59,282 nucleotides of DNA, taken from Oscillospiraceae bacterium (GTDB lineage: Bacteria; Bacillota; Clostridia; Oscillospirales; CAG-272). The first letter of the stretch is position 1, and every line of letters starts with the position of its first letter. The position numbers were made by a program, and so were the translations under genes. Under the pieces are notes generated by a model. That model had not been told where the DNA came from, ran no database searches, and saw only the letters and a program-made list of their open reading frames with translations. Below are positions 29,170 through 45,891 of this stretch, piece after piece. The stretch is taken from the NCBI GenBank assembly GCA_015063895.1, contig SVTG01000010.1, positions 1-59,282 on the forward strand, written 5' to 3'.

Positions 29170-30096
29170 TCAGAAATAGGATCTGGCGCGCTCCACGTCA
29201 AGGCGGATCTGCGCCTCGAGCTCGTCAAGCCCCTCAAATTTGCGCTCCTCGCGCAGAAAATGCAAAAAGCTGACCGTCATTTCCTTGCCGTAAAGATTGC
29301 CGTCAAAATCAAACAAAAAGGTTTCGCAGTTGACGTCGCGCCCGTCGTTCACGGTGGGGCGCACGCCCACGTTGCAAATACCGCAGTAGCAGGCGCCGTC
29401 AACGCTTACCTGCACCGCGTAAACGCCGTGCATCGGCACAAGCATACCGGTGGGAAAGGTGAGATTGGCGGTCGGAAAGCCCATCGCGCGCCCGATACGG
29501 CGCCCGTCCGTGACGTGCCCCGTCAGCGCATAGGGGCGCCCGAGGAGCCTTGCCGCATCATCGGGCTGACCGCCCGTGAGCATGGCGCGTACCAGACTGG
29601 AGCTGACGGTATAAGGGCCGTCAAGCACGGGTGACATGACCGATACGGTGCGGCCGTTTTTGGCAAAGCGTTGCAAAAGGTCGGTGGGTGTGCCCTTGCC
29701 GCGTGCGCCAAAGCTGTAATTAAAGCCGCATACCAGCAGCTCTGCGTGACATTCGCCGATCAAAACGTCGTCGATAAAGGCCTCGGGCGTGAGGTCCTTG
29801 ATGGCGGGGAAATCGTAAAGCACGGCAAAATCAAGGCCCGCCGCCTTGATCAGCGCCAGCTTTTCCTCAAGCGAGGTCAGCTGAGGGGTGGGGCGTTTGG
29901 AAAGCGTTGCCGTGGGCGGCGTTGTAAAAAGCAGTACGCCAAGAGGGAGGTCGGCATGGCGCAGGCGCGCTTGCTGCTGCAATTCGTCAAAAAGTGCGCG
30001 GTGGCCGACGTGCACACCGTCAAAATGGCCAAGGCAAAGCCCACAGCCCCCCGCAAGCGTTACGGGCTGTTTTTCACAAAAGCTGACCAGTTGCAT
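29170..30096 (-). CDS. ribF: Bifunctional riboflavin kinase/FAD synthetase
   Basis: 308 residues, standard for RibF. The nucleotidyltransferase half has LCLGHFDGVHVGHRALFDEL (HxGH-type motif) and VCGFNYSFGARGKG; SSSLVRAMLTGGQPDDAARLLGRPY leads into the kinase half with GRAMGFPTANLTFP and GVYAVQVSVDG, and ends NCETFLFDFDGNLYGKEMTVSFLHFLR. It makes FMN and FAD. GAAGGAGG precedes the ATG. Single gene, no riboswitch visible upstream. Confidence 0.96.
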   Translation of the reverse strand: MQLVSFCEKQPVTLAGGCGLCLGHFDGVHVGHRALFDELQQQARLRHADLPLGVLLFTTPPTATLSKRPTPQLTSLEEKLALIKAAGLDFAVLYDFPAIKDLTPEAFIDDVLIGECHAELLVCGFNYSFGARGKGTPTDLLQRFAKNGRTVSVMSPVLDGPYTVSSSLVRAMLTGGQPDDAARLLGRPYALTGHVTDGRRIGRAMGFPTANLTFPTGMLVPMHGVYAVQVSVDGACYCGICNVGVRPTVNDGRDVNCETFLFDFDGNLYGKEMTVSFLHFLREERKFEGLDELEAQIRLDVERARSYF

Positions 30097-30176: not shown

Positions 30177-30450
30177 ACGCCCTCTACAAGGAAACGTGCG
30201 TCGCTCGCAAAAATTAAAAAATTCACGCACAATGTAACGCCAACCTGTAGGGACAGGCGCCCTCGACTGTCCGTGATGTGTTTGCACGGAATAACGGGTC
30301 GCCGAGGGCGTCGACCCCTACAAGGAAACGTGCTTCGCTCGCAAAAACAAAAAAATTTACGCACAATGTACCGCCCACCTGTAGGGACAGGCGCCCTCGA
30401 CTGTCCGCGATGTGTTTGCACGGAATAACGGGTCGCCGAAGGCTCGCAAC
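30177..30450. repeat. Two tandem copies of a 134-bp intergenic repeat
   Basis: CTACAAGGAAACGTGC at 30184 recurs at 30318. Each unit holds CCTGTAGGGACAGGCGCCCT, CGACTGTCCG, GTTTGCACGGAATAACGGGT and CGCCGA(G/A)GGC. The head and tail (GTAGGG..., ...CCCCTAC) are built like the REP units at 36.6-38 kb but with another core. No gene in 30097-30623. Confidence 0.8.
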
Positions 30451-30623
30451 CGCCGCCACGCGTCGGGAACTACGAGGAGAGGCGTCGGTGCGTCGGTATA
30501 AATGGTATGAATTCCCATCAATTCCATCAAAGAGTGGTGGGCAATACTTGACATATGAACTCTTTCATAGTATAATAGAATATTACAAGCAAACCGCAAA
30601 AAACGGGGAAAGGGGGGTGCTGA

Positions 30624-32960
30624 ATGTCACAGGAAAAGAAAAGACCAACGGGCGTGCCTTCGGACTTTTGGGATATTGCCGCCTTGGTGCCGCCGCGCGC
30701 GAAACGCGGCACGTACCGTGAGCCGCCCCGCCGCCAAACCGATACCCGAGCGGTGCCCGTCAGCGTGCCGCAGCCGCAGGGTAAGAGGCAGACCGCCCCC
30801 GTCGCAGGCACAGCCGATATCCGTATGGAAGCCGTCCCCGTGGCCGCGCAGCACCCCCTCGCGCCCCCTCAAGGAGAGCAGGGCGCCACAAGGGGGAACG
30901 CGCCACTCCTTTTTGACGATATCACCCAAAACGGTGCAGAAAAAATCGCTGTGTCGCAACCCCAAAATGTCGCGCAGCAGCTGCAAAGCACCGCACCGCA
31001 ACCCCAAAACGGTGCAGAAAAAATCGCTGTGCCGCAACCCCAAAATGTCGCACAGCAAACCACGGTTACCGTGGAGGCGGTGGCGACCGCGCCCACCGTG
31101 CATCTGATGTCGCAAACGGGCACGGTGATGGCGGGTGACGTGCCTTTGCCGCGCCGCGAGCTTGTGCCCGCGGCGCCGACCGAAGCGCCACGCCCCGAGC
31201 GTGTTTACCGCCCCGAGGGCGGGTTTTTGCGTGAGGTGCGCGTGTTTTTGTTCGGTCGCCCGCATACCTACTATGCGGCCTTTGCCAATCACGCGAAAAA
31301 GCTTAAGGATTTTGAGGGCAAGGAGGTGCCCCACGTTCCCTTTTTCTCCTATATGCCGCAATATACGCAGTTGACACGCCCACAGCTTGCCTACTATTTT
31401 TGGTGGCGGACCTCCTTTCGGCGCGGCGTGGCACTGGAAGCCGATTATTCCTATCTTTTGCTGTATATATTTGAGATCATCAATCTTGGTGATGAAATTG
31501 ACCCCCAAACGGGGCAGGAAAGCCTGCAAAGGCTCTGGCTTTCCTATCGCGGTCAATATCCGCGCCTTGACGGTGTTTTGCGTGAGTGGCTTTGCGATTA
31601 TGCACTTGTGCACGGCCTCGCCCCCCTGCCATTGCCCGCGGGGCAGCTTCGCGCACTTGTCACAGATGCACGCTTAAAGGAATTTTATCTGGGGGCGGGC
31701 AAGGGTGAGAGCTTGCTGGATGCCGTTTTGGCCTTTTCCAGCAATTACGACTACCGCAAAAGCAAGTTTTACCGCGGCGAGCACGTGGCACTCTTTGACC
31801 GCGTGCTGCGTGGGGCCGCCAAGCTGGCGCTGGAGGCCCTGATGCGCGAAAACAGTGAAGGGGAAATGCCCTTGGGGCATTCCACCGTGACGCGTGAAAG
31901 CTTTTCGGGGGCGCTTTGCACCAGCCGCCAAAAAAAGCGTATCGAGGTGGATTTTGTATCCTTTTCGCATACCTATCGCCTGCGTTACGTGCTCAGCGAC
32001 GTCTTGAAATACGCGGAGAATGCGGTAAGAGCTCACCTCGGTATCAAATCGCGTCTGTCGGTGTACGAGGTGCCAAACGATCTGCGCGAGGCGCTTGAGT
32101 GCTATCTTGCTACCGCCTTGCCGCCCAAGTCCGTACGTGCAGTCGGCAAAACCCCCGCGCCGATGCCCGACTATGAAAAGCGCTATGAGCTGCCGCAGCT
32201 TGCACTCTCACTTGACCGCGCCGCCACCATTGAGGCAGAATCCTGGCAGACCACCAGGCGCTTGGTGGAGGCCTTTGGCGGTATACAAGCCGATGCCGAT
32301 CCGCTGCCCGCGGTACCCGTTGGCAGAGAAAAAAACGAAAAATACCCCGAAACGGTATCAAAAACCGACACTTTGCATGAAAACGGCAGCGCTTTGCATG
32401 CAACGCGCCCTCAAGAGGACGTCGCACCCACGAGCCCCCAAGAGCCTGCCGCACCCACGCGCCCCGGAGAGTGCGTCGCGCCCACGCGCCCCCAAGAGGG
32501 TGTCATGTCCACGCGCCCTCAACAGGGTGTCATGTCCACGCGCCCCGGAGAGTGCGTCGCGCCCACGCGCCCCCAAGAGGGTGTCATGTCCACGCGCCCT
32601 CAACAGGGTGTCATGTCCACGCGCCCCGAAGAGGGTGTCGCGTCCACGCGCCCCCAAGAGGGTGTTCCGTCCACGTGCCCCACAGACTCGCGCTGCACGC
32701 AGGGTGGGGCACACGGCAAGGGGCCGCTTGCCGAGGCGCTGGGTGACCTTGCTGCCTTTTTGCCGCTTGTGGCAAGAGGAGATACAGCGGCCATGCGCGC
32801 GTTCTCGGGGCAGAGGGGGCTGATGGTAGACGCCGTTTGCGATCGCATCAACACCGTGGCAGTAGATCTGCTCGGTGACGTTATATTGGAAGAAAGTATG
32901 GGTACGTGGCAAATTATCGAGGATTACCGTACCGATTTAGAGGAGGGACTGTTATCATGA
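30624..32960 (+). CDS. TerB_N/TerB_C-domain protein of a three-gene ATPase-helicase module
   Basis: 778 residues. Residues 1-190 are Pro/Gln-rich and disordered, with repeats of PQPQN(V/G)A. From about 198 a TerB_N domain starts (GFLREVRVFLFGRPHTYYAA, MPQYTQLTRPQLAYYFWWRT, YLLLYIFEIINLG). A TerB_C-like part follows from about 515 (LSLDRAATIEAESWQTTRRL). It is interrupted at about 590-690 by ten or so 10-residue repeats (RPQEGVMST type) and resumes as INTVAVDLLGDVILEESMGTWQIIEDY. TerB-type proteins are tied to stress and phage-related systems, but the molecular role is unknown. Its stop overlaps the ATPase start (ATGA), so production is coupled. No signal peptide or membrane span. Confidence 0.82.
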   Translation: MSQEKKRPTGVPSDFWDIAALVPPRAKRGTYREPPRRQTDTRAVPVSVPQPQGKRQTAPVAGTADIRMEAVPVAAQHPLAPPQGEQGATRGNAPLLFDDITQNGAEKIAVSQPQNVAQQLQSTAPQPQNGAEKIAVPQPQNVAQQTTVTVEAVATAPTVHLMSQTGTVMAGDVPLPRRELVPAAPTEAPRPERVYRPEGGFLREVRVFLFGRPHTYYAAFANHAKKLKDFEGKEVPHVPFFSYMPQYTQLTRPQLAYYFWWRTSFRRGVALEADYSYLLLYIFEIINLGDEIDPQTGQESLQRLWLSYRGQYPRLDGVLREWLCDYALVHGLAPLPLPAGQLRALVTDARLKEFYLGAGKGESLLDAVLAFSSNYDYRKSKFYRGEHVALFDRVLRGAAKLALEALMRENSEGEMPLGHSTVTRESFSGALCTSRQKKRIEVDFVSFSHTYRLRYVLSDVLKYAENAVRAHLGIKSRLSVYEVPNDLREALECYLATALPPKSVRAVGKTPAPMPDYEKRYELPQLALSLDRAATIEAESWQTTRRLVEAFGGIQADADPLPAVPVGREKNEKYPETVSKTDTLHENGSALHATRPQEDVAPTSPQEPAAPTRPGECVAPTRPQEGVMSTRPQQGVMSTRPGECVAPTRPQEGVMSTRPQQGVMSTRPEEGVASTRPQEGVPSTCPTDSRCTQGGAHGKGPLAEALGDLAAFLPLVARGDTAAMRAFSGQRGLMVDAVCDRINTVAVDLLGDVILEESMGTWQIIEDYRTDLEEGLLS
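32395..32690 (+). repeat. 30-bp coding minisatellite in the TerB protein gene
   Basis: About ten units of the type CCCACGCGCCCCCAAGAGGG plus TGTCATGT. A larger repeat of three units is itself duplicated (RPGECVAP-TRPQEGVMS-TRPQQGVMS twice). It lies in a linker inside the TerB_C-like part and is likely variable between strains. Confidence 0.9.
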
Positions 32961-34303
32961 GTGAAACCAAGCAAGGGGCGGTGCGTGTACCGCGCCGCAT
33001 ATTGAACGCGCTGATGGCCTCGCTTGCCGCAGGCGTGGTGCCGCGCACAGGTGCCCCGTACGTGGCGATCGGCCGAAGGGAGGAGATCGGTGCCTTTTTG
33101 TCCGACCTTGAAAATATCAGCGAGGGCGGTGCCGCCATGCGCTTCCTGATCGGTCGCTACGGCAGCGGTAAAAGCTTTTTGATGCAGCTGGTGCGCGGCT
33201 ACGCGCTTGAGCGCGATTTTCTTACGGCCGATGCCGATCTTACCCCCGAACGGCGACTGTACGGCACGGGCGGCACAGGCGTTGCCACCTATCGCGAGCT
33301 GATGAAAAATCTTGCCTCCAAGGCCTCGCCCGACGGTGGGGCGCTCCCGAAGATCATTGCCAGATGGCTGGGGCAATTACAGGCCGAGGTCGGTGAGGAC
33401 GCCACGGGCGAAAAGCTGCGCGTGCGTGTGAGTGAAGCGCTCAGCGACGTGGAATTTATGGTGGGCGGCTTTGATTTTGCACGTGTGATCGTGGCGTATT
33501 ACCGCGCGTATCTTGACGGAAACGACGAAAAAATGTCGGCCTGCCTTTGCTGGCTGCGCGGCGAATTTTCCTCTAAGACCGAGGCAAGAAGCGCCCTCGG
33601 CATACAGGTCTCGGTGATCATCAACGACGAAAACTGGTACGATTTTATCAAGCTTTTTGCGGTGCTGGCGCGCCGCATCGGCTATCGGGGGCTGGTGGTG
33701 TTCGTTGACGAATGCGTCAATCTTTATAAGATCGTACACCGTGTCAGCCGCGAAAACAATTACGAAAAGATCCTTTCTATGTTCAACGACGCCCTGCAGG
33801 GCAAGGCCGAGGGGCTTTTGCTCTGCCTTGGCGGCACACCCCAGTTTTTGGAGGATACGCGCCGTGGGCTCTTCAGCTACGAGGCCTTGCGCTCCCGCCT
33901 TTGTGACAGCCGCTTTTTCGCGCCCGAATTTAAAAATCTTATCGGGCCCGTCATTCGCCTGCGGCGCCTTTCCGATGACGAGCTGTATGCCTTGATCGTG
34001 CGCGTGAGCGCCCTTTATGCCGAGTGCTACGGCACAGCGCCGCGCATAACAAGCGAGCAGCAGGTGCGCTTTTTGCGCTTTTGCCTTTCCCGTGCGGGTG
34101 CTGACAGCCTGATGACGCCGCGTGAGATCCTGCGCGACTATATGACGGTTTTGAATATTTTAATGCAAAATCCCGATACCGATTTTGATGCGCTGCTGGC
34201 GCGTGTCGGCGGTGAAGGGGAGAGCGGTGTGCAGGAAAGTGCCGAAACGGGTAGCGAAAACGGCACTCCTTCTCCCTTTGACCCCAGTGATATCGTTTTG
34301 TAA
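32957..34303 (+). CDS. BrxD-like P-loop ATPase (DUF2791 family)
   Basis: 448 residues. Opening VRVPRRILNALMASLAAGVVPRTGAPYVAIGR with GRYGSGKSFLMQLVRGYALE (Walker A, residues 66-73), and GLVVFVDECVNLYKI (Walker B near 240-250), match the DUF2791/BREX ATP-binding protein BrxD family. The downstream LLLCLGGTPQFLEDTRRGLFSYEALRSRL is also typical. Such ATPases are thought to load or drive DNA-acting partners; here the partner is the helicase 9 bp downstream. The start at 32957 follows GGAGGG by 8 bp and overlaps the TerB gene by 4 bp. Confidence 0.85.
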   Translation: MSETKQGAVRVPRRILNALMASLAAGVVPRTGAPYVAIGRREEIGAFLSDLENISEGGAAMRFLIGRYGSGKSFLMQLVRGYALERDFLTADADLTPERRLYGTGGTGVATYRELMKNLASKASPDGGALPKIIARWLGQLQAEVGEDATGEKLRVRVSEALSDVEFMVGGFDFARVIVAYYRAYLDGNDEKMSACLCWLRGEFSSKTEARSALGIQVSVIINDENWYDFIKLFAVLARRIGYRGLVVFVDECVNLYKIVHRVSRENNYEKILSMFNDALQGKAEGLLLCLGGTPQFLEDTRRGLFSYEALRSRLCDSRFFAPEFKNLIGPVIRLRRLSDDELYALIVRVSALYAECYGTAPRITSEQQVRFLRFCLSRAGADSLMTPREILRDYMTVLNILMQNPDTDFDALLARVGGEGESGVQESAETGSENGTPSPFDPSDIVL

Positions 34304-34312
34304 GGTGACGCG

Positions 34313-36553
34313 ATGCAGGAGATAACCGTTTTTGATCGCTTTGCGCCCTTTGTGCGCGAATATATCTGGTCGCACGGGTGGGAAAGCCTGCGTGCCGTAC
34401 AGGTGGCGGCGGCACAGGTGATCTTTGATACCGATCACCATCTTTTGCTCACCAGCACGACGGCCAGCGGCAAGACCGAGGCCGCGTTCTTTCCGATCCT
34501 GACCGAGCTTTACGAGCGCCCCGCACGGGGCATTGCCGTTTTGTACGTGGCGCCCCTCAAGAGCCTCATTAACGACCAGTTTGGCCGTATGGAGGAGCTG
34601 CTGCGCGAAAGCGGTATTCCCGTGACGCACTGGCACGGGGACGTTGCCGCCTCGCACAAGAAAAAGCTCCTTGCATGCCCTGAGGGCATCTTGCAGATCA
34701 CGCCCGAGTCGCTTGAAAGCATGCTCATCAACCGCTCAAACGATATACCGCGCCTGTTTGGCGATCTGCGCTTTGTGGTGATCGACGAGGTGCATACCCT
34801 CACGGGTGCCGATCGCGGCAATCAGATACAGTGCCAGCTTTCGCGCATCGCGCGTCTGATCGGGCATCAGCCGCGCCGCGTGGGGCTTTCCGCCACCGTG
34901 GGCGATCCGCAGCAGGCGGCCGAGTGGCTGTCGGGCGACAGCGGCATTCTCTGTGAGGTGCCCACCCTGCCGCCTGCGGCGCTTCGCTGGCGTCTGGGGC
35001 TTGAGCATTTTTTCTTTGCCAATGCCGACCCCGACCAAAGCGACGACAAAAAGCCCCTTGACGGGGGCGAAAACAGCCCGCTTGACGCAGGATATGAATA
35101 TATGTACGATTGCGTGAAGGATAAAAAGGCGTTGGTGTTTTCAAACTCGCGTGAGGAGACCGAGTATCTGACGGCTACCTTCCGTCAGATCGCCGCGCGC
35201 CGCCACGACAAGGATAGGTTTTATATCCACCACGGCAATCTCTCCGCCGCCCTGCGTGAGGACGCCGAGCGCCGTATGAAAAGTGACGAGGAGCACGCCG
35301 TTACGTGCGCCACGGTCACCATGGAGCTGGGCATTGATATCGGGCGCCTTGAGCGCGTGCTGCAAAGCGACGCGCCGACGTCGGTGTGCAGCTTTTTACA
35401 GCGCCTGGGGCGCTCGGGCAGGCGCGATGCACCGCCCGAGATGATGATGGTCTTTCGCGAGGAGGACCCCTTGCCAAACACCCCCCTGCCGCAGCTGCTG
35501 CCCTGGGGGCTGCTGCGCGCCATTGCCATTGTGCAGCTCTATCTGGAGGAGCGCTTTATCGAGCCGCCGCGCCGCAAAAAAATGCCGATGAGCCTCTTGT
35601 TTCATCAGACCTTAAGCGTGCTCGCTGCCTCGGGTGAGCGCACGCCGAGGGCACTCGCGGAGCAGATCCTGAAAATGCCCCCCTTTACGGCGGTGGCGCG
35701 TGAGGATTATCGCGCGCTGCTCGTGCACATGGTGACCGACGGCTTTTTGGAGCTGACCGAGCAAAAGGGGCTGATCGTGGGGCTTGCGGGTGAGCGCTTA
35801 CTGCGCAGCTTTCAGTTTTACGCCGTTTTTAAGGACAGTGAGGACTTTACCGTACGCGCCACGGGCGAGCATGGCACCGCCGAGGAGATCGGCACCATCA
35901 CGACGCCACCCCCCGTCGGTGACCGCTTTGCGCTGGCAGGGCGCGTATGGGAGGTGGAGGAGCTGGATATTGCGCGGCGCCTCGTTTACGTGCACGCGGT
36001 GGCAGGAAAGATGGAGGTATCGTGGCCGGGCGATTACGGTGAAATTCACACCAGGATCTTACAGCGTATGCGCCGTGTGCTGGCGGAGGATACCGACTAT
36101 CCGTATCTGAAGCCAAACGCCAAGCACCGTCTTGACGTGGCAAGGCATCTGGCGCGCAACACGGGTGTGACTGAAAAAATGCTTCTGCATCTCGGGGGGC
36201 GCACGTGGTGCCTTTTCCCGTGGCTGGGCACGCGTGGCTTTCGCACGCTGCGCCGCACGCTGACGGCAAATGCCGCCGCACTTGGTGTGTCGGGCATCGA
36301 ATATGAGGGGTGCTGTTATTTGAAATTCCATCTTGACGGCGACGGCGCCACCCTGGCTGCCCGTCTTTCGGTACTCGGGGAGGAGGGGATCCATGCCGCC
36401 GAGCTTGTCGGTGCCGCCGAGCTGCCCCTGTTTGATAAATTTGATGCGCTGCTGCCGCGCGAGCTCTTGCAAAAGGCCTTTGCTACCGACCGCCTGGATA
36501 CCGTCGAGGCGGCAGGCGTGCTCCGCGCCCTTGGGAACGAATGGGGCGTGTAA
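34313..36553 (+). CDS. Lhr/BrxHI-like superfamily 2 DEAD/DEAH-box helicase
   Basis: 746 residues with the SF2 motifs in order: Q-like VQVAAAQ, TTASGKTEAAF (I, residues 49-56), VAPLKSLINDQ (Ia), TPESLE (Ib), DEVH (II, 158-161), GLSATVGDP (III, 193), LVFSNSREETEYL (IV), ATVTMELGIDIG (V) and FLQRLGRSGRRD (VI). The remaining 370 residues include Lhr-like winged-helix and beta domains. BrxHI of some BREX types is the nearest functional relative I can name. It translocates on nucleic acid with ATP. It ends the three-gene operon; no nuclease or methylase domain is visible in it. Confidence 0.9.
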   Translation: MQEITVFDRFAPFVREYIWSHGWESLRAVQVAAAQVIFDTDHHLLLTSTTASGKTEAAFFPILTELYERPARGIAVLYVAPLKSLINDQFGRMEELLRESGIPVTHWHGDVAASHKKKLLACPEGILQITPESLESMLINRSNDIPRLFGDLRFVVIDEVHTLTGADRGNQIQCQLSRIARLIGHQPRRVGLSATVGDPQQAAEWLSGDSGILCEVPTLPPAALRWRLGLEHFFFANADPDQSDDKKPLDGGENSPLDAGYEYMYDCVKDKKALVFSNSREETEYLTATFRQIAARRHDKDRFYIHHGNLSAALREDAERRMKSDEEHAVTCATVTMELGIDIGRLERVLQSDAPTSVCSFLQRLGRSGRRDAPPEMMMVFREEDPLPNTPLPQLLPWGLLRAIAIVQLYLEERFIEPPRRKKMPMSLLFHQTLSVLAASGERTPRALAEQILKMPPFTAVAREDYRALLVHMVTDGFLELTEQKGLIVGLAGERLLRSFQFYAVFKDSEDFTVRATGEHGTAEEIGTITTPPPVGDRFALAGRVWEVEELDIARRLVYVHAVAGKMEVSWPGDYGEIHTRILQRMRRVLAEDTDYPYLKPNAKHRLDVARHLARNTGVTEKMLLHLGGRTWCLFPWLGTRGFRTLRRTLTANAAALGVSGIEYEGCCYLKFHLDGDGATLAARLSVLGEEGIHAAELVGAAELPLFDKFDALLPRELLQKAFATDRLDTVEAAGVLRALGNEWGV

Positions 36554-37010
36554 GGGCGTTTGTTTGTGGCACGTCCGGGAATAGACGATAAACGGACGAC
36601 CGATGGTCGCCCCTACAAGCGTAGGTTTTCTTTTGTCGTGTATGCCATGTAAAAGGTTTACATTCGTAGGGGCGTGCATTGCACGTCCGAAAACGACCGA
36701 TGCGGACGACCGATCAACGGACGACCGATGGTCGCCCCTACAAGCGTAGGTTTTCTTTTGTCGCGTATGCCGTGTAAAAGTTTACATTCGTAGGGGCGTG
36801 CATTGCACGTCCGAAAACGACCGATGAATGCCTTGCCGCAAACGGACGACCGATGGTCGCCCCTACAAGGGATAACGATGCCCACACGAACGGCGTAAAA
36901 AATTGACCGTAGGGGCGTGCATGGCACGTCCGAAAACGACCGATGCGGACGCCCGATGCGGACGCCCGATGCGGACGACCGATAAACGGACGACCGATGG
37001 TCGCCCCTAC
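36554..37010. repeat. REP-type palindrome array, left part (about 125-bp period)
   Basis: Heads GTAGGGGCGTGCATTGCACG start at 36666 and 36790, with a variant (ATGGCACG) at 36909. Tails CGACCGATGGTCGCCCCTAC end at 36616, 36741, 36866 and 37010. A spacer AAGCGTAGGTTTTCTTTTGT lies between units. Head and tail are near inverted complements and each has an internal palindrome. No gene. Confidence 0.88.
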
Positions 37011-37040
37011 ACGCTCGGCATTCACCCCTATAAACAAATT

Positions 37041-37081
37041 ACGGCAGAGGAATTGCTTACTCTGCCGTTTTGTGTTATAAT
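37041..37081 (+). promoter_or_regulatory. Hairpin overlapping the RAYT promoter
   Basis: TTGCTT (37053), 17 bp, TATAAT (37076-37081) is a good promoter directly before the transposase start. The -35 lies in the loop of ACGGCAGAG/CTCTGCCGT, a terminator-like hairpin with a short T-run (37041-37071). Confidence 0.6.
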
Positions 37082-37091
37082 GATTTGGGTG

Positions 37092-37598
37092 ATGAAAATG
37101 AATGATGAAAAAAATTGGCCACGGCGTAAGCATATCCGCCTTGAAAATTATGATTACAGCGCATCAGGGGGGTATTTTCTCACAATATGTACGTCGCAAC
37201 GGCGTAATTATTTTTGGGAGAATGTAGGGGCGACCATTGGTCGTCCGAGTGACGTTGTTTTGTCGCATTATGGAAAAATTGTGGATGAAGCTATCCATAA
37301 TATTTCGTCGATCTATCCTGCGATAGAGCTTGATTGCTACGTGATCATGCCCGATCATATCCATTTATTGCTGATTGTTCATTCTGATGAATACGGACGA
37401 CCGATGGTCGCCCCTACCATGTCAAGAGTGGTGCAGCAATTAAAGGGCTATGTGACAAAACGCATTGGTTGTGTTATTTGGCAGAAGCTTTTTGTTGATC
37501 ATGTTATCAGAAACCGAAAGGATTATGAAGAACATGTCAGGTATATTGCCGAAAATCCTATGCGGTGGCGTTGTGATGACTTGCACGCAATGGAATAA
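37092..37598 (+). CDS. REP-associated tyrosine transposase (RAYT, Y1-HUH)
   Basis: 168 residues of the Y1_Tnp/IS200-like family, RAYT branch. KHIRLENYDYSASGGYFLTI opens the fold, the HUH motif is MPDHIHLLL (His 89 and 91), a candidate catalytic Tyr is in LKGYVTK (120), and WQKLFVDHVIRNRKDYEEHV and YIAENPMRW are the family tail. RAYTs nick and move flanking palindromic REP sequences as single strands. Here REP arrays stand on both sides, and two REP palindromes lie inside the gene itself (37224-37247 and 37394-37417, in opposite orientation), read in frame as VGATIGRP and GRPMVAPT. The upstream in-frame extension is only translated repeat, so I start at 37092 (37098 is also possible). Confidence 0.9.
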   Translation: MKMNDEKNWPRRKHIRLENYDYSASGGYFLTICTSQRRNYFWENVGATIGRPSDVVLSHYGKIVDEAIHNISSIYPAIELDCYVIMPDHIHLLLIVHSDEYGRPMVAPTMSRVVQQLKGYVTKRIGCVIWQKLFVDHVIRNRKDYEEHVRYIAENPMRWRCDDLHAME

Positions 37599-37618
37599 CG
37601 AGGCGGTACACCATGTAA

Positions 37619-38083
37619 AAGGTTTACCTTCGTAGGGGCGTGCATTGCACGTCCGCGAATAGACGATAAACGGACGCCCGATGCGGACGACCGATGGTCG
37701 CCCCTACAAGCGTAGATTTTCTTTTGTCGTGTACGCCATGTAAAAGGTGTATATTCGTAGGGGCGTGCATTGCACGTCCGAAAACGACCGATGAATGCCT
37801 TGCCGCAAACGGACGACCGATGGTCGCCCCTACAAGCGTAGATTTTCTTTTGTCGTGTATGCCATGTAAAAGGTTTACCTTCGTAGGGGCGTGCATTGCA
37901 CGTCCGCGAATAGACGATAGGCGACGACCAATAAACGGACGACCGATGGTCGCCCCTACAAGCGTAGGTTTTCTTTTGTCGTGTATGCCATGTAAAGGTT
38001 TACATTCGTAGGGGCGTGCATTGCACGTCCGGAACGACCGATGAATGCCTTGTCGCAAACGGACGACCGATGGTCGCCCCTAC
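37619..38083. repeat. REP-type palindrome array, right part
   Basis: Heads start at 37632, 37757, 37883 and 38008 (period 125-126 bp); tails end at 37707, 37833, 37959 and 38083. Between units the spacer ACAAGCGTAG(A/G)TTTTCTTTT and GCCATGTAAA is kept. No gene. Confidence 0.9.
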
Positions 38084-39182: not shown

Positions 39183-39629
39183 ATGAAGTGTCCCAACTGC
39201 GGTTTTCAAGATAGCAAGGTGATCGATTCCCGCCCCATTGAGGAGGGGAACAGCATTCGCCGCCGTCGTGAGTGTCTTTGCTGTCAGAAACGCTTTACCA
39301 CCTTTGAGGTGATCGAGTCTATGCAAATTTTAGTGGTCAAAAAGAGTGGCAAAAAGGAGCTCTTTGACCGTTCCAAGATGCTTTCGGGCATTATGAAGGC
39401 CTGCCAGAAGCGCCCCGTCAACGGTGAGGAGATCGCCGCCGAGATCGAGGCTGAATTGCAAAATTCGCTGGTTCAGGAGGTCACCTCGCGCGAGCTGGGT
39501 GAAATGATCATGAAAAAGCTCAAGGAGCGCGACGACGTTGCCTACGTGCGCTTTGCGTCGGTTTACCGCGAGTTTAAGGATCTTGATACCTTCTTGGCCG
39601 AATTGAAGGAACTGAAGGAACGCAAATAA
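39183..39629 (+). CDS. nrdR: Transcriptional repressor NrdR
   Basis: 148 residues, the family length. The zinc ribbon is MKCPNCGFQDSKVIDSRP with CLCCQKRFTTFE (four Cys). The ATP-cone follows (VVKKSGKKELFDRSKMLSGI, KACQKRPV) with VTSRELGEMIMKKL and DDVAYVRFASVYREF. It senses ATP/dATP and represses ribonucleotide reductase genes. Monocistronic, with a terminator 28 bp downstream. Confidence 0.97.
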   Translation: MKCPNCGFQDSKVIDSRPIEEGNSIRRRRECLCCQKRFTTFEVIESMQILVVKKSGKKELFDRSKMLSGIMKACQKRPVNGEEIAAEIEAELQNSLVQEVTSRELGEMIMKKLKERDDVAYVRFASVYREFKDLDTFLAELKELKERK

Positions 39630-42094: not shown

Positions 42095-42138
42095 TCCCGA
42101 CCCACTTGAAAAATGAAAGCAAAGGAGGCGTGAATTTG

Positions 42139-45100
42139 ATGGCAGAGGAAAGAAAGACCGATTTTTCGGAGGCCGATCTCGTGATGCAGCAGCTGCGTGC
42201 ACAGTTAGAGGCGGACCGTGGCCTCTCTGCCGAGGTCGCCCCTGCTGAGGTGCCTTTGTCGGCACCGACGCATGACAAGGAAGAACGACAACCGCAGGAA
42301 CCGGAACAGGAACAAGAACAAAAACAAGAAACAAATATAGAAGAAAACGCACCCGTTGAGGCAGATACGCCCGTTGAGGAGGTTGCTGCCGAGGCAGAGG
42401 AGCCCGTAGAGGCAAATACGCCCGTAGAGGAGGCTGCTACCGAGGCAGAGGTGTCCGTTGAGGCCGCAGCGCCCGTTGAGGAGGTTGCTGCCGAGGCGGA
42501 GGCGCCCGTAGAGGCCGCAGCGCCCGTTGAGGAGGTCGCTGCCGAGGCGGAGGAGCCTGTTGAGGCCGCAGTGCCCGTTGAGGAGGTTGCTGCCGAGGCA
42601 GAGGCGCCCGTTTCTGCCGAGCCCGAGATCATATTGATCGAGGACGATACGCCCCTTGAGGTGGTGGAGGCCGAGGTGGAGGCCGCCGTGGCGCAAGCAC
42701 CGCAAAAGCGCAAGAAGCGTCTGCGTATACCGCGCTTTGACAGCATCTCGCGCATGGAGGCACCCGTGCCCCTTGACAGCACGGCAAGAGAAGAGAAGAA
42801 AAAACGCGCCGCAGCCCTTGCAGGCGAGGCCGAGGATAGCCTGTTCTGGCAGCAAACGCCCGTGGGGCAAGCGCCGCGCTATGCACCGCAACGCGGTGCC
42901 TCGGTGGTGGCTGCCGCCGCCGCAAAGGATCGCGGCAAGACGCATAGGCACCGTCCTGCGCCCAAGCCCAAAAACCCCGACGTGATCGAGGAGGAGGTGC
43001 TGGGGCTTACTCCCGATGCCGCGGTGCCTACGCCTGCCGTGAGGGGTGCGGCATTTGCAAAAGCCTCTCCCGTCGGAAAGAGCGCACCCGTGGCGGAAAA
43101 GGCCGCACCTGTGGTAGAAAAGACCGCACCCGTGGCGGAAAAGGCCACACCTGTGGCGAAAAAATCCGCTTTTGCAACAGAAAACGATCCTATTACCATA
43201 CCGAAAACGCCCCCCGTTTCGGCGCGTGCGCCGCAGCAAGCGGTAAGTGAAGTGTCCAAGCCCGTCGCGGACGTAACACCCGTCGCGGACGTGGCACCCG
43301 TCGCGGACGTGCCACCCGCCAAGGACGTAACACCCGTCGCGGACGTAACACCCGTCGCGGACGTAACACCCGTCGCGGACGTGGCACCCGTTGAGGAGGC
43401 GGCATCGGTGACGGCTGCGCCTGCTTTTGAGCAGCCCACGCCCGATACGGGCGCCGAAGCCGCACACGGTATGGATTTTCTGCATGCCTCACGCCGTCGC
43501 GGCTTACGCGGTCGCGCCATGCGCGAAAAAATGGCGCGCAAGAGCGAGGAAAATGCAGGCCTCACGGTAGAGCAGCTGCTCAGCGACATTTTTGGCGAGG
43601 GGCAGGGGCCTGCGGGGCACGCGTGGCTCTCGGCACAGGGCAAGGAGCCCACAGCGCCGACCGACAAGCAAGGTGCTCCCGTTGCCGTCGCGCCCGCTGC
43701 CGACCCGAACACCGCGGCCGCCCCCGACGTCGACGCACCGACGGTGGTGCTGGGCGGTCAGGCGCTGGTGCTGCCCGACGAGGCTGCGCTGGCCAAGGGA
43801 CAGCACCTGCCCGATACCCCCGATAGCGCGCAGGAGCGTGCGCCACAGGGCACTGACCCCGCCGAGGGTGAGCCCTCCCTTGCCGCTGAGGGTGAGGGTG
43901 AGGTGCCGCTGTTCTCCGCCTTTTCGGTACACAGAAGGCGCGATGGCGCTCTGCCGCGCCCGAAGCTCACCCGACGCTCAGCCGATCAGCTTGCCTTTAA
44001 GCGTCAGCTGGAGGAAAGTGAGCAGGAGCTCGAATTGCTGGTCGACCTCGATTACGAGGAGGAGCTTGGCGAGGTCATTGGCTTTGAAAAAATAAAGGCC
44101 TACCACGAGCGGCGCCTGAACGGTAAGCTTGAGCGCCGTGCCTCGAGCCGCCGTCACAGGCAAAAATATGAATATACCGCCCATGCACACGATATCGGGC
44201 TGTCTAAGTTTTATGCCAAGCAGCGCCGCACGCATATCATCAGTCTTACTGTGATGGCATTTTTGCTGCTCGTGCTCTTTATGTTTGAGCGCTCGGCGGT
44301 GATCCGCTCCTTCTTTGGCGAGACCGCAGGCGATCTGCACGAGCCGCTGTATCTGGCTGTCGGACTTTTGCTCTTTTTGGTCGGCGTGTTTATGCTGCGC
44401 CGTCACCTGGTGGACGGTCTGTGGCAGCTGCTTTGTCTTACCCCGAACGACAATTCGCTTTGCGCCCTGGTGGTGCTGGTCACGCTTTGCTATCACGCGG
44501 TGCTCTTTTTCGTGCCGCTTGACGGCGCCATGACGCTTTTCCTCTCACCCGCGATGGCTAGCCTTTGCCTGCTGTCGCTTTCCGAGTTCTTTAACTGGTA
44601 TCGCGAGTTTTCAGCCTTCCGTGTGGTGTCCTCCAAGCAGCAAAAATACGCGCTTTTGCCCCGTGTATCGGTCGGCAGTAAGGAGAGCAGCGCGCGCCGA
44701 CGCTTGTTTGAAAACGAAACGCACACGCGCGTGTGGTACGTGCGCCCCGTCGGCTTTATCCGAAATTATTTTGCCAATACGAGGAAAAAGACAAACCATC
44801 AGCGCGCACTCGGCGCGCAGTTGTTGCTGCTCGCGGCCCTGTCGGTGGCGCTGGCGCTCTTCAAGCTGGCCATGGGCGGCAGTCTGCCCGACGCCGTACA
44901 TACCGCCTTCGTTTGCTTTTTGATCTCGGTGCCCGCCGTGTCGGTCCTGCTGACCTCCTTGCCCATGTTCTGCGGTGCCTGCCTTTGCCTTGGGCGCCGC
45001 GGCGCCATCATCGGGGAGCAGGCCGTGTACGAATCCGAGGGCAGCACCGAGCTGGTTCTGCCCGACAGCGCCTGCTTCAAGCAGATGCCCCACGAGCAGT

Positions 45101-45891
45101 TTGAGCTCGTCAAGGGGTGCGACGCGCAGGAGGCCACGCTGATGATCCGCGCGCTGCTCGATAAGCTGGGCAGCGCCCTTGCCCCCACCGTAGAGGTGCC
45201 CGAGGAGATGCGCTTGTCCCCCGATACGGTCACGCTGACCGACGTGTCGGAACGCGGTGTCGCCGCGGTCATCTCGGGTGAACGCAAGACCCCAATTCTG
45301 CTCGGTGACGTCAGCTATTTGCAGCGCTACGGCATTCACGTCAGCCCCAAGAAGGACGGTCGCTATGAGGAGATCCGTCGCAATATGCTTTGCGTTGCCA
45401 TCGGCAATCGCCTCACGGCCCTCTTTATTGCCCGTTACCGTCCCGAGGCAGGTATGCTTTCGCTCAGCGAGGCGCTGGAGAGCGAGGGCGTGCGTCTGGT
45501 CATTCGCTCGGCAGACCCCGGTATTCACGACGAGCTCCTGCAGGAGCTGTTTGCCGATGCCGATCAGCCCCCTCGCGTGATGAAGCCGCTGGCTACCGAA
45601 AGCGATCTTTCGGCCGAGCGCGTAGATGCCACCGTGGTGGCCGTCGGCTCCGCCCGTGAGGCGGCGCACACCTTTGTCACGTGCCGCCGTATTCGCCGTG
45701 CTGTGCGCTTGGGACGCGTATGGCAGGTGCTTTCCCTGGTGCTGGGTGCAGGGCTGTCTACGCTCTTGACCTTCCTTGGGGTGCTTGACGCATTGCCTGC
45801 CTACGCCGTGGCCCTTTATGCCTTTTTGTGGAGTGGCACCCACGCGATGAGCTCTTACTTCACGCTGCGTGAAAAGGGCGAAATGGAATGA
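42139..45891 (+). CDS. Degenerate P-type-ATPase-like membrane protein with long repetitive N-terminus
   Basis: 1250 residues from ATG at 42139 (AAAGGAGG 10 bp upstream). Residues 1-690 are disordered, with two repeat tracts: about five 20-residue units of the type APVEEVAAEAEAPVEA, and later VADV(T/A)P units. About six membrane spans lie between residues 697 and 955. The rest follows a P-type ATPase: GRRGAIIGEQAVYE (after span 6), VAAVISGERKTPILLGDVSY (N-domain), LCVAIGNRLTALFIARYRPE, GVRLVIRSADPGIHDELLQE (P-domain) and a final helical hairpin. The phosphorylated DKTGT is replaced by LVLPDSACF, and the TGD and GDGxND motifs are missing, so transport by phosphoenzyme is not expected. A scaffold or regulator role is inference. 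It sits between rlmB and a radical SAM gene. Confidence 0.7.
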   Translation: MAEERKTDFSEADLVMQQLRAQLEADRGLSAEVAPAEVPLSAPTHDKEERQPQEPEQEQEQKQETNIEENAPVEADTPVEEVAAEAEEPVEANTPVEEAATEAEVSVEAAAPVEEVAAEAEAPVEAAAPVEEVAAEAEEPVEAAVPVEEVAAEAEAPVSAEPEIILIEDDTPLEVVEAEVEAAVAQAPQKRKKRLRIPRFDSISRMEAPVPLDSTAREEKKKRAAALAGEAEDSLFWQQTPVGQAPRYAPQRGASVVAAAAAKDRGKTHRHRPAPKPKNPDVIEEEVLGLTPDAAVPTPAVRGAAFAKASPVGKSAPVAEKAAPVVEKTAPVAEKATPVAKKSAFATENDPITIPKTPPVSARAPQQAVSEVSKPVADVTPVADVAPVADVPPAKDVTPVADVTPVADVTPVADVAPVEEAASVTAAPAFEQPTPDTGAEAAHGMDFLHASRRRGLRGRAMREKMARKSEENAGLTVEQLLSDIFGEGQGPAGHAWLSAQGKEPTAPTDKQGAPVAVAPAADPNTAAAPDVDAPTVVLGGQALVLPDEAALAKGQHLPDTPDSAQERAPQGTDPAEGEPSLAAEGEGEVPLFSAFSVHRRRDGALPRPKLTRRSADQLAFKRQLEESEQELELLVDLDYEEELGEVIGFEKIKAYHERRLNGKLERRASSRRHRQKYEYTAHAHDIGLSKFYAKQRRTHIISLTVMAFLLLVLFMFERSAVIRSFFGETAGDLHEPLYLAVGLLLFLVGVFMLRRHLVDGLWQLLCLTPNDNSLCALVVLVTLCYHAVLFFVPLDGAMTLFLSPAMASLCLLSLSEFFNWYREFSAFRVVSSKQQKYALLPRVSVGSKESSARRRLFENETHTRVWYVRPVGFIRNYFANTRKKTNHQRALGAQLLLLAALSVALALFKLAMGGSLPDAVHTAFVCFLISVPAVSVLLTSLPMFCGACLCLGRRGAIIGEQAVYESEGSTELVLPDSACFKQMPHEQFELVKGCDAQEATLMIRALLDKLGSALAPTVEVPEEMRLSPDTVTLTDVSERGVAAVISGERKTPILLGDVSYLQRYGIHVSPKKDGRYEEIRRNMLCVAIGNRLTALFIARYRPEAGMLSLSEALESEGVRLVIRSADPGIHDELLQELFADADQPPRVMKPLATESDLSAERVDATVVAVGSAREAAHTFVTCRRIRRAVRLGRVWQVLSLVLGAGLSTLLTFLGVLDALPAYAVALYAFLWSGTHAMSSYFTLREKGEME
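42343..42612 (+). repeat. 60-bp coding tandem repeat (Glu/Ala/Pro-rich)
   Basis: About four and a half units built from GAGGCCGCAGCGCCCGTTGA plus GGAGGTTGCTGCCGAGGCGG. A second tract of 18-bp units (CCCGTCGCGGACGTAACA) lies at 43261-43395. Confidence 0.9.

Follow-up and report, generated by a model that had tools for sequence, protein, structure and literature searches.

A near-core, mostly vertically inherited Shango operon in a family of Clostridia

The three-gene operon and its products

The window analyzed here, the 59,282-nucleotide contig SVTG01000010.1 of an Oscillospiraceae bacterium (assembly GCA_015063895.1; GTDB order Oscillospirales, family CAG-272), contains three consecutive genes, sngA, sngB and sngC, that encode the components of Shango, a published anti-phage system. 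All three open reading frames (ORFs) lie on the + strand and span positions 30624-36553: sngA (30624..32960) encodes a 778 aa protein with TerB_N and TerB_C domains, sngB (32957..34303) a BrxC/BrxD-type AAA+ ATPase of 448 aa, and sngC (34313..36553) a 746 aa Lhr-like superfamily 2 (SF2) helicase with additional C-terminal domains. The ATG at 32957 overlaps the sngA stop codon TGA as ATGA (sequence 32950-32960) and, judging from the sequence, is most likely the start of sngB, the GTG at 32906 being only the start of the mechanically called ORF (32906-34303); the gap between sngB and sngC is 9 bp. The initial annotation, made from the letters alone, had described these co-directional, coupled genes and assigned the same protein families, and both points were confirmed, the latter by Pfam and PADLOC.

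The best PADLOC profiles for the three proteins are SngA (168 bits), SngB (528 bits) and SngC (798 bits), versus 154 bits for BrxD and 438 bits for BrxHI. Because all three Shango profiles are matched, we identify the trio, by these profiles, as SngA-SngB-SngC of Shango; hence, it is no new machine, and the name already given to the system had been missed. Passages of Johnson et al. 2023 (PMC10250203) describe Shango of Pseudomonas aeruginosa PA14 as an operon of TerB, ATPase and helicase genes that, when expressed in PAO1, modestly lowers the plating of many but not all phages (10-100-fold), which agrees with the earlier designation of the locus as a defence module; a separate report on Shango in E. 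coli, presumably that of Millman et al. 2022, is cited there. A phage phenotype is thus published; a worked-out mechanism was not found in these passages (PMC10250203).

A remnant or stand-alone piece of a bacteriophage exclusion (BREX) system, that is, BrxD and BrxHI with a TerB passenger, would account for the homology of SngB and SngC to BrxD and BrxHI. However, the Shango profiles win by hundreds of bits, SngB reaches 153 bits against a cut-off of 350 with the BrxD equivalog model, and no BREX partner model is matched by the 48 other ORFs of the window. Furthermore, all SngB matches of lower score in the family (45-313 bits) are only partial, and the 41 genomes not counted as positive give no match at all; therefore, BrxD-like proteins seem to be absent from the family. 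Given the profile scores and the missing partners, we rejected this extremely improbable origin, in accord with the original statement that the locus is not BREX.

In SngA, Pfam detects TerB_N (68 bits, residues 213-334 matched) and TerB_C (27 bits), and the PADLOC match extends over residues 192-774 on profile positions 75-525 of 528. The structural model contains a predicted ordered core at about 180-555, disordered linkers, and TerB_C at about 700-778. The second linker, located between two conserved parts, is encoded by a 27-bp (9-codon) tandem repeat of approximately 10 copies (32403..32681, + strand), and is mostly gapped in relatives (median 80%), so that the variable linker noticed in the first reading is real. 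The TerB core domain (PF05099) was detected in none of 43 SngA proteins of the family. Among three plasmid-encoded SngA tested, Pfam finds this core in the Klebsiella copy and not in the Aeromonas or Paenibacillus copy. A review table gives PF05099 for Shango (PMC10952713); the PADLOC profiles do not require it and, because the core-less Aeromonas and Paenibacillus proteins also match the SngA profile, we did not treat the TerB core as Shango-defining. The profile alignment of the family SngA is end to end with Paenibacillus SngA; such an alignment was not achieved with the Klebsiella or Aeromonas protein.

A Foldseek search with the SngA model gave no significant match (best E-value 0.33), and searches of solved structures by sequence with the SngA profile and with SngB yielded nothing usable. 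In a second look with VIA, against a restricted list, residues 699-778 mainly pointed to winged helices, with weak resemblance, whereas nothing in the same list convincingly resembled the N-terminal body. With the TerB core undetected, the previously suggested function of the TerB protein as a metal or membrane sensor is not supported for this SngA; an SngA with no detectable TerB core also suggests that this domain is dispensable for the machine.

SngB matches BrxC_BrxD (PF10923) with 489 bits. Its Walker A motif (GRYGSGKS, 33152..33175, + strand) is present as G-x-[FY]-GSGKS in 79 of 79 relatives, and the D and E of Walker B (VVFVDE, 33695..33712, + strand) are at least 95% conserved in the same 79 sequences. 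SngC contains DEAD (95 bits) and Helicase_C (61 bits) domains, with helicase motifs I, Ia, II, III and VI in 30/30 and motif V in 29/30 sequences. The best fold match of its model is the Lhr structure 5v9x (E-value 2.7e-19), and it scores below the NCBIfam equivalog cut-offs for Lhr and ligase-associated DEXH helicases (TIGR04121, 217 of 850 bits; NF007284, 120 of 1496 bits). According to passages of the respective papers, SngC groups with the BrxHI, DruE and DpdJ helicases (PMC12278908), and BrxD possibly loads or activates BrxHI (PMC12839542). No nuclease family was matched among the three proteins.

The composition of the operon was examined on named genome contigs with SngB, namely the best 80 of 148 relatives, picked by similarity to the window; these are metagenome-assembled genomes (MAGs) whose titles read Clostridia, Clostridiales, Oscillospiraceae or Ruminococcus; most come from the guts of herbivores, and they overlap in part with the genome set used below, the related loci not being independent. 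With the window included, 68 of the 81 loci contain the full trio in the order sngA-sngB-sngC (tblastn). Six of the remaining 13 only have a gene cut off at the contig end, and seven lack a detectable sngA or sngC within the contig (sngA undetected in five, one of which is also cut at the sngC side, and sngC undetected in two). In 12 close pairs, the dN/dS ratios are in the range of 0.04 to 0.14 for sngB and sngC and 0.11 to 0.40 for sngA where computable, part of the pairwise comparisons being saturated or incomplete; these low values indicate that the trio genes are real and under selection. Genes are inserted between sngB and sngC at several loci (L057, 8529-10450, as well as L060, L065, L074 and L111). 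A fourth subunit was considered and rejected, given that the inserted genes look metabolic by eye (EutH-like transporter, PHP phosphatase, acetyltransferase, esterase).

Distribution and inheritance

Within the window's genus, 17 of 21 genomes encode SngB. In the family, the count is 105 of 146, or 77 of 104 when only genomes of good quality are considered, and 55 of 71 genera are represented; MAG incompleteness lowers these counts. A single match is found in 101 of these 105 genomes; of the four with multiple matches, read by hand, three contain pieces of one gene, and one (G071) has an extra partial match. SngA likewise matches 105 of the 146 genomes, with both proteins together in 104. As controls in the same genomes, ribF is detected in 142 and hsdR in 41, of which 21 are over its cut-off. 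The window's genome itself encodes a type I restriction HsdR (contig 30, 2406-4361; 425 bits), on a contig different from that of the trio.

Presence follows the genus. Among the 45 genera with at least two genomes, SngB is found in all genomes of 29, in none of eight, and in part of the genomes of eight, compared to 24.3 mixed genera expected, and none of 5000 shuffles got down to eight. For hsdR, there are 18 mixed genera, also below chance (1.7% of shuffles), so part of the genus clustering is general. We then compared trees of SngB (79 sequences) and rpoB (72 sequences), with both available in 70 genomes: 24 of 67 splits are common to the two trees, versus 0.2 expected with shuffled labels, and the Mantel r is 0.64. 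For 61 genomes that also have ribF, SngB has more splits in common with rpoB (24/58) than ribF (13/58), with 1/21 and 1/12 well-supported splits, respectively, contradicting rpoB, and Mantel r values of 0.52 and 0.27; ribF is a lenient control in these comparisons, being shorter and faster evolving (mean distance 3.1 vs 1.5). Thus, in the window's family, the trio has near-core status and its inheritance is mostly vertical.

Outside the family, the distribution thins out. In the order, SngB is present in 56 of 245 genomes or, after a hand count that removes two weak rows and 18 genomes of the window's own family, in 44 of 227. In the phylum, 50 of 398 genomes have a match and only 23 of these, including the window's genome, reach at least 350 bits (hand count); the weaker matches are probably BREX-type proteins. 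The initial annotation had held that universal conservation in Clostridia at a fixed housekeeping position would speak against defence; such conservation is seen in part, at the level of the genus and the family, but not for Clostridia overall.

Another family, f54, has SngB in 40 of 98 genomes, one match being weak. The identity of f54 SngB to the Paenibacillus plasmid copy is 65-79%, versus 48% for the window, and on this ground we take the family as Paenibacillus-like. Here too, presence is a matter of genera: g214 (9/9), g254 (8/8), g284 (7/7), g450 (3/3) and g459 (7/8) have SngB, g445, g446, g447, g448, g454, g457 and g458 lack it, and g449 (3/8) and g451 (1/7) are mixed. All 20 f54 loci fetched contain the trio in the same gene order. 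Flanking genes are common on both sides in 5/5 loci of g254, upstream in 5/5 and downstream in 3-4 of 5 loci of g214, in 2/2 loci of g450, in only 2/3 of g284 and, for one downstream gene, in 3/3 of g459, and only one neighbour gene cluster spans two genera; the position of the trio is therefore fixed only in part of the genera.

Mobile copies were found as well. SngB matches occur on 691 of 72,556 plasmids, with 449 records from Klebsiella and 144 from Salmonella; of the 691, 542 are typed conjugative. The Aeromonas, Klebsiella and Paenibacillus plasmid copies have the same gene order as the window trio. No SngB match was found in phage records. At least 80% of the Klebsiella sngBC query is present in 469 of 5426 E. 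coli genomes. As far as the available passages go, Shango was among the systems identified by DefenseFinder in a bovine rumen survey (PMC13356809); the listings, abstract openings and passages covered by our literature search contained no description of Shango as a core or vertically inherited system in a lineage of this kind.

Promoter and genomic site

A perfect sigma-70/sigma-A-type promoter match, TTGACA-N17-TATAAT (30548..30576, + strand), is located 47 bp before the sngA start codon. The window contains three such perfect matches overall; near-consensus promoters are therefore not rare in this genome. Of the 73 family loci with sngA, the window among them, 70 were compared; in 64 of these, 11 or all 12 hexamer positions match upstream of sngA (52 are perfect, 12/12), and the other six score 8-10 of 12. 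All 64 have a 17-bp spacer and 57 a TGn extended -10; in 10 of them, the ORF as called includes the promoter within its initial 60 bases. In 350 shuffled controls, 11 matches are reached twice. Conserved flanking genes reach 11 in 51 of 266 cases, TGn being present in 24 of the 51; a cluster of neighbours that looks like RNase Y by eye does so in 8 of 10 loci and, therefore, Shango is not alone in having a near-perfect promoter. The mean identity of the spacers of relatives is 39%, suggesting selection to maintain the hexamers, and the trio is predicted to be strongly and constitutively expressed. A candidate operator in the spacer of the window (TATGAA-CTCT-TTCATA) was dismissed, the low spacer identity leaving no conserved operator. 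The 20 loci of f54 do not show this promoter (best 7-10 of 12). Just upstream of the promoter in the window lies a direct repeat of 132 nt in two copies that are 92% identical (30178-30443), distinct from the REP element described below.

The site is bordered on the left by ribF, encoding FAD synthetase/riboflavin kinase (29170..30096, - strand), which is outside the system, and on the right by nrdR (39183..39629, + strand). In the window's genus, ribF is within approximately 4.2 kb of SngB in 14 of the 15 genomes that have both (coordinates compared by hand), and the two are on separate contigs in the 15th. Of the four genus genomes without SngB, three also lack ribF, so an assembly gap is likely there. 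The fourth, G017, has an empty site (L154, 7941-9520), with nrdR and ribF about 160 bp apart and the trio absent.

The neighbour found most often at the named loci is ribF, in 20 of the 76 for which an upstream flank is available. Next comes nrdR, present at 11 loci and downstream in 10 of them (66 loci have a downstream flank), and two more neighbour clusters, RNase Y and RadA by eye, account for 10 loci each. At 29 loci, drawn from 40 with enough flank, we analyzed on either side the two ORFs closest to the trio that are at least 150 aa long (116 proteins); the flanks and start codons came from a greedy ORF caller, and some of these ORFs are spurious. Among the 25 of 113 Pfam families listed, the ribF (11 proteins) and nrdR (4 proteins) domains lead, accompanied by metabolic enzymes and two phage integrases; one neighbour (L044) has a plasmid Rep domain. 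Thus, the neighbours of the trio are mostly housekeeping genes. The site differs elsewhere in the family and, therefore, between genera, either the trio has been relocated or the DNA around it has been rearranged.

These neighbourhoods bear on whether the operon is an ordinary, horizontally acquired defence-island Shango that is here by chance. Shango is mobile elsewhere, as shown by the conjugative plasmids, and, in the passages available, sits in a defence hotspot in P. aeruginosa (PMC10250203); besides the integrase and Rep domains, the 116 neighbours include one match each to reverse-transcriptase-type models and several candidate (PDC) models. However, at an E-value of 1e-10, only 16 PADLOC models are matched, by at most two proteins each and in part generically (RecD, dGTPase, HIT), the 48 other ORFs of the window match just two models, mad3 and mad8, at 1e-5, and the SngB tree is congruent with that of rpoB. 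This explanation is already disfavoured and appears improbable. Likewise, the view of the initial annotation that this is an accessory locus finds no support in the housekeeping neighbours, the near-core, mostly vertical inheritance in the family, and the fixed position in the window's genus.

Downstream of sngC is a repetitive extragenic palindromic (REP)-like array (36593-38083), in which a 24-bp element occurs 17 times, on both strands, where 0.25 occurrences are expected; the array had been cited as fitting an accessory locus and is indeed present, but uninformative about the trio. Within the array, an ORF resembling REP-associated tyrosine transposases (36903-37598; NF047646, 65 bits, cut-off 80) itself contains copies of the element at 36909, 36987, 37224 and 37394. 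Further on, a 1261-aa ORF (42106-45891) consists of long Ala/Pro/Glu/Val repeats followed by a membrane-like part and has no NCBIfam match; in G017, a similar ORF adjoins a trmH-like gene (by eye).

Interpretation and relation to known systems

Considering the genus-wise presence, the trees and the promoter, we regard it as probable that, in this family of mostly herbivore-gut Clostridia, Shango has turned into a near-core, mostly vertically inherited chromosomal element with a strong, always-on promoter. In the proposed mechanism, SngA would be the recognition and adaptor subunit, with a TerB_N body, flexible tethers and a winged-helix-like C-terminal TerB_C; SngB, an ORC/Cdc6-like AAA+ ATPase, would provide an ATP switch that loads SngC; and SngC, as an Lhr-like SF2 helicase, would unwind or strip invader DNA intermediates and so stall invader replication. 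That the trio of this clade acts against phages, that loader and helicase work in this order and that SngA binds DNA are predictions.

Several observations weigh against this interpretation. In another family of the order, SngB is present in only 5 of 20 genomes, all in one genus (g100, 5/10), so the near-core status is not general. Four of 25 well-supported SngB splits clash with well-supported rpoB splits in the 70 genomes, and a few events of SngB transfer are possible. The congener G017 and 8 of the 45 multi-genome genera do without the trio, which is therefore not essential. BLASTP finds no similarity between the window SngA and the Klebsiella plasmid SngA, the only one of the three plasmid proteins with a Pfam TerB core, and we know of no phage phenotype for any copy of this clade. 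Finally, it is unusual for a defence system to be fixed in position, surrounded by housekeeping genes and inherited as a single copy, and these features fit a cellular role equally well.

Such a cellular role would be that of a genome-maintenance machine, in which an AAA+ loader, an Lhr-like helicase and an adaptor act on stalled replication or recombination intermediates, and which would be the ancestor or else a co-opted derivative of the mobile defence version. The near-core, tree-congruent presence with mostly one match per genome, the ribF-adjacent site in the genus and mainly core-gene neighbours elsewhere, the near-perfect promoter, and the genus-core distribution in f54 (9/9, 8/8, 7/7, 3/3 and 7/8) with conserved flanks in some genera are all compatible with this role, and PcdA, a restriction-type AAA+ protein co-opted for cell division, offers a precedent (abstract of PMC10602043). 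A housekeeping machine is nevertheless less easily reconciled with whole genera, and G017, that do without the trio, with the patchy presence in g449 (3/8), g451 (1/7) and g100 of the third family (5/10), or with the accessory behaviour of SngB on 691 plasmids and of sngBC in 469 of 5426 E. coli genomes, and we consider it rather unlikely, if the more serious of the competing explanations. More doubtful still is the further-reaching idea that the trio is an old core genome-integrity complex without a TerB core, retained chromosomally behind a near-perfect promoter, of which the mobile Shango of plasmids and proteobacterial islands would be exported, partly TerB-equipped descendants or sisters.

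A clade with a near-core, strongly promoted Shango would mean that entire genera can keep a named defence system as a stable component of their genomes, and that metagenome surveys which score operons of this kind as mobile defence may be misleading. It also makes testable whether Shango works on cellular DNA and which part of SngA sensing requires.

Among known systems, BrxD-BrxHI of type 2 BREX resembles the trio in having a homologous ATPase and helicase side by side, a possible loader-helicase pair according to passages of PMC12839542. It differs in that no PglX, PglZ, BrxC or PglW model is matched in the 48 other window ORFs at an E-value of 1e-5, SngB is under the BrxD equivalog cut-off, and the window trio includes a TerB-type protein. 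Lhr, in particular the Lhr core (5v9x), is the nearest fold to the SngC model; Lhr helicases, however, are stand-alone, without SngA or SngB partners. The TerB_N and TerB_C domains of SngA reportedly also occur in the Ter-dependent stress systems described by Anantharaman et al. 2012. The closest likeness is to Shango itself, with the same three-gene order as the annotated plasmid copies and a TerB-type protein, a BrxC/D-type ATPase and a DEAD/DEAH helicase. Compared with Shango as known, the window SngA has no detectable TerB core and carries a repetitive linker, SngB and SngC are 39% and 31% identical, respectively, to the Klebsiella plasmid proteins, and the trio is near-core in its family instead of patchy, with a near-perfect promoter in front.

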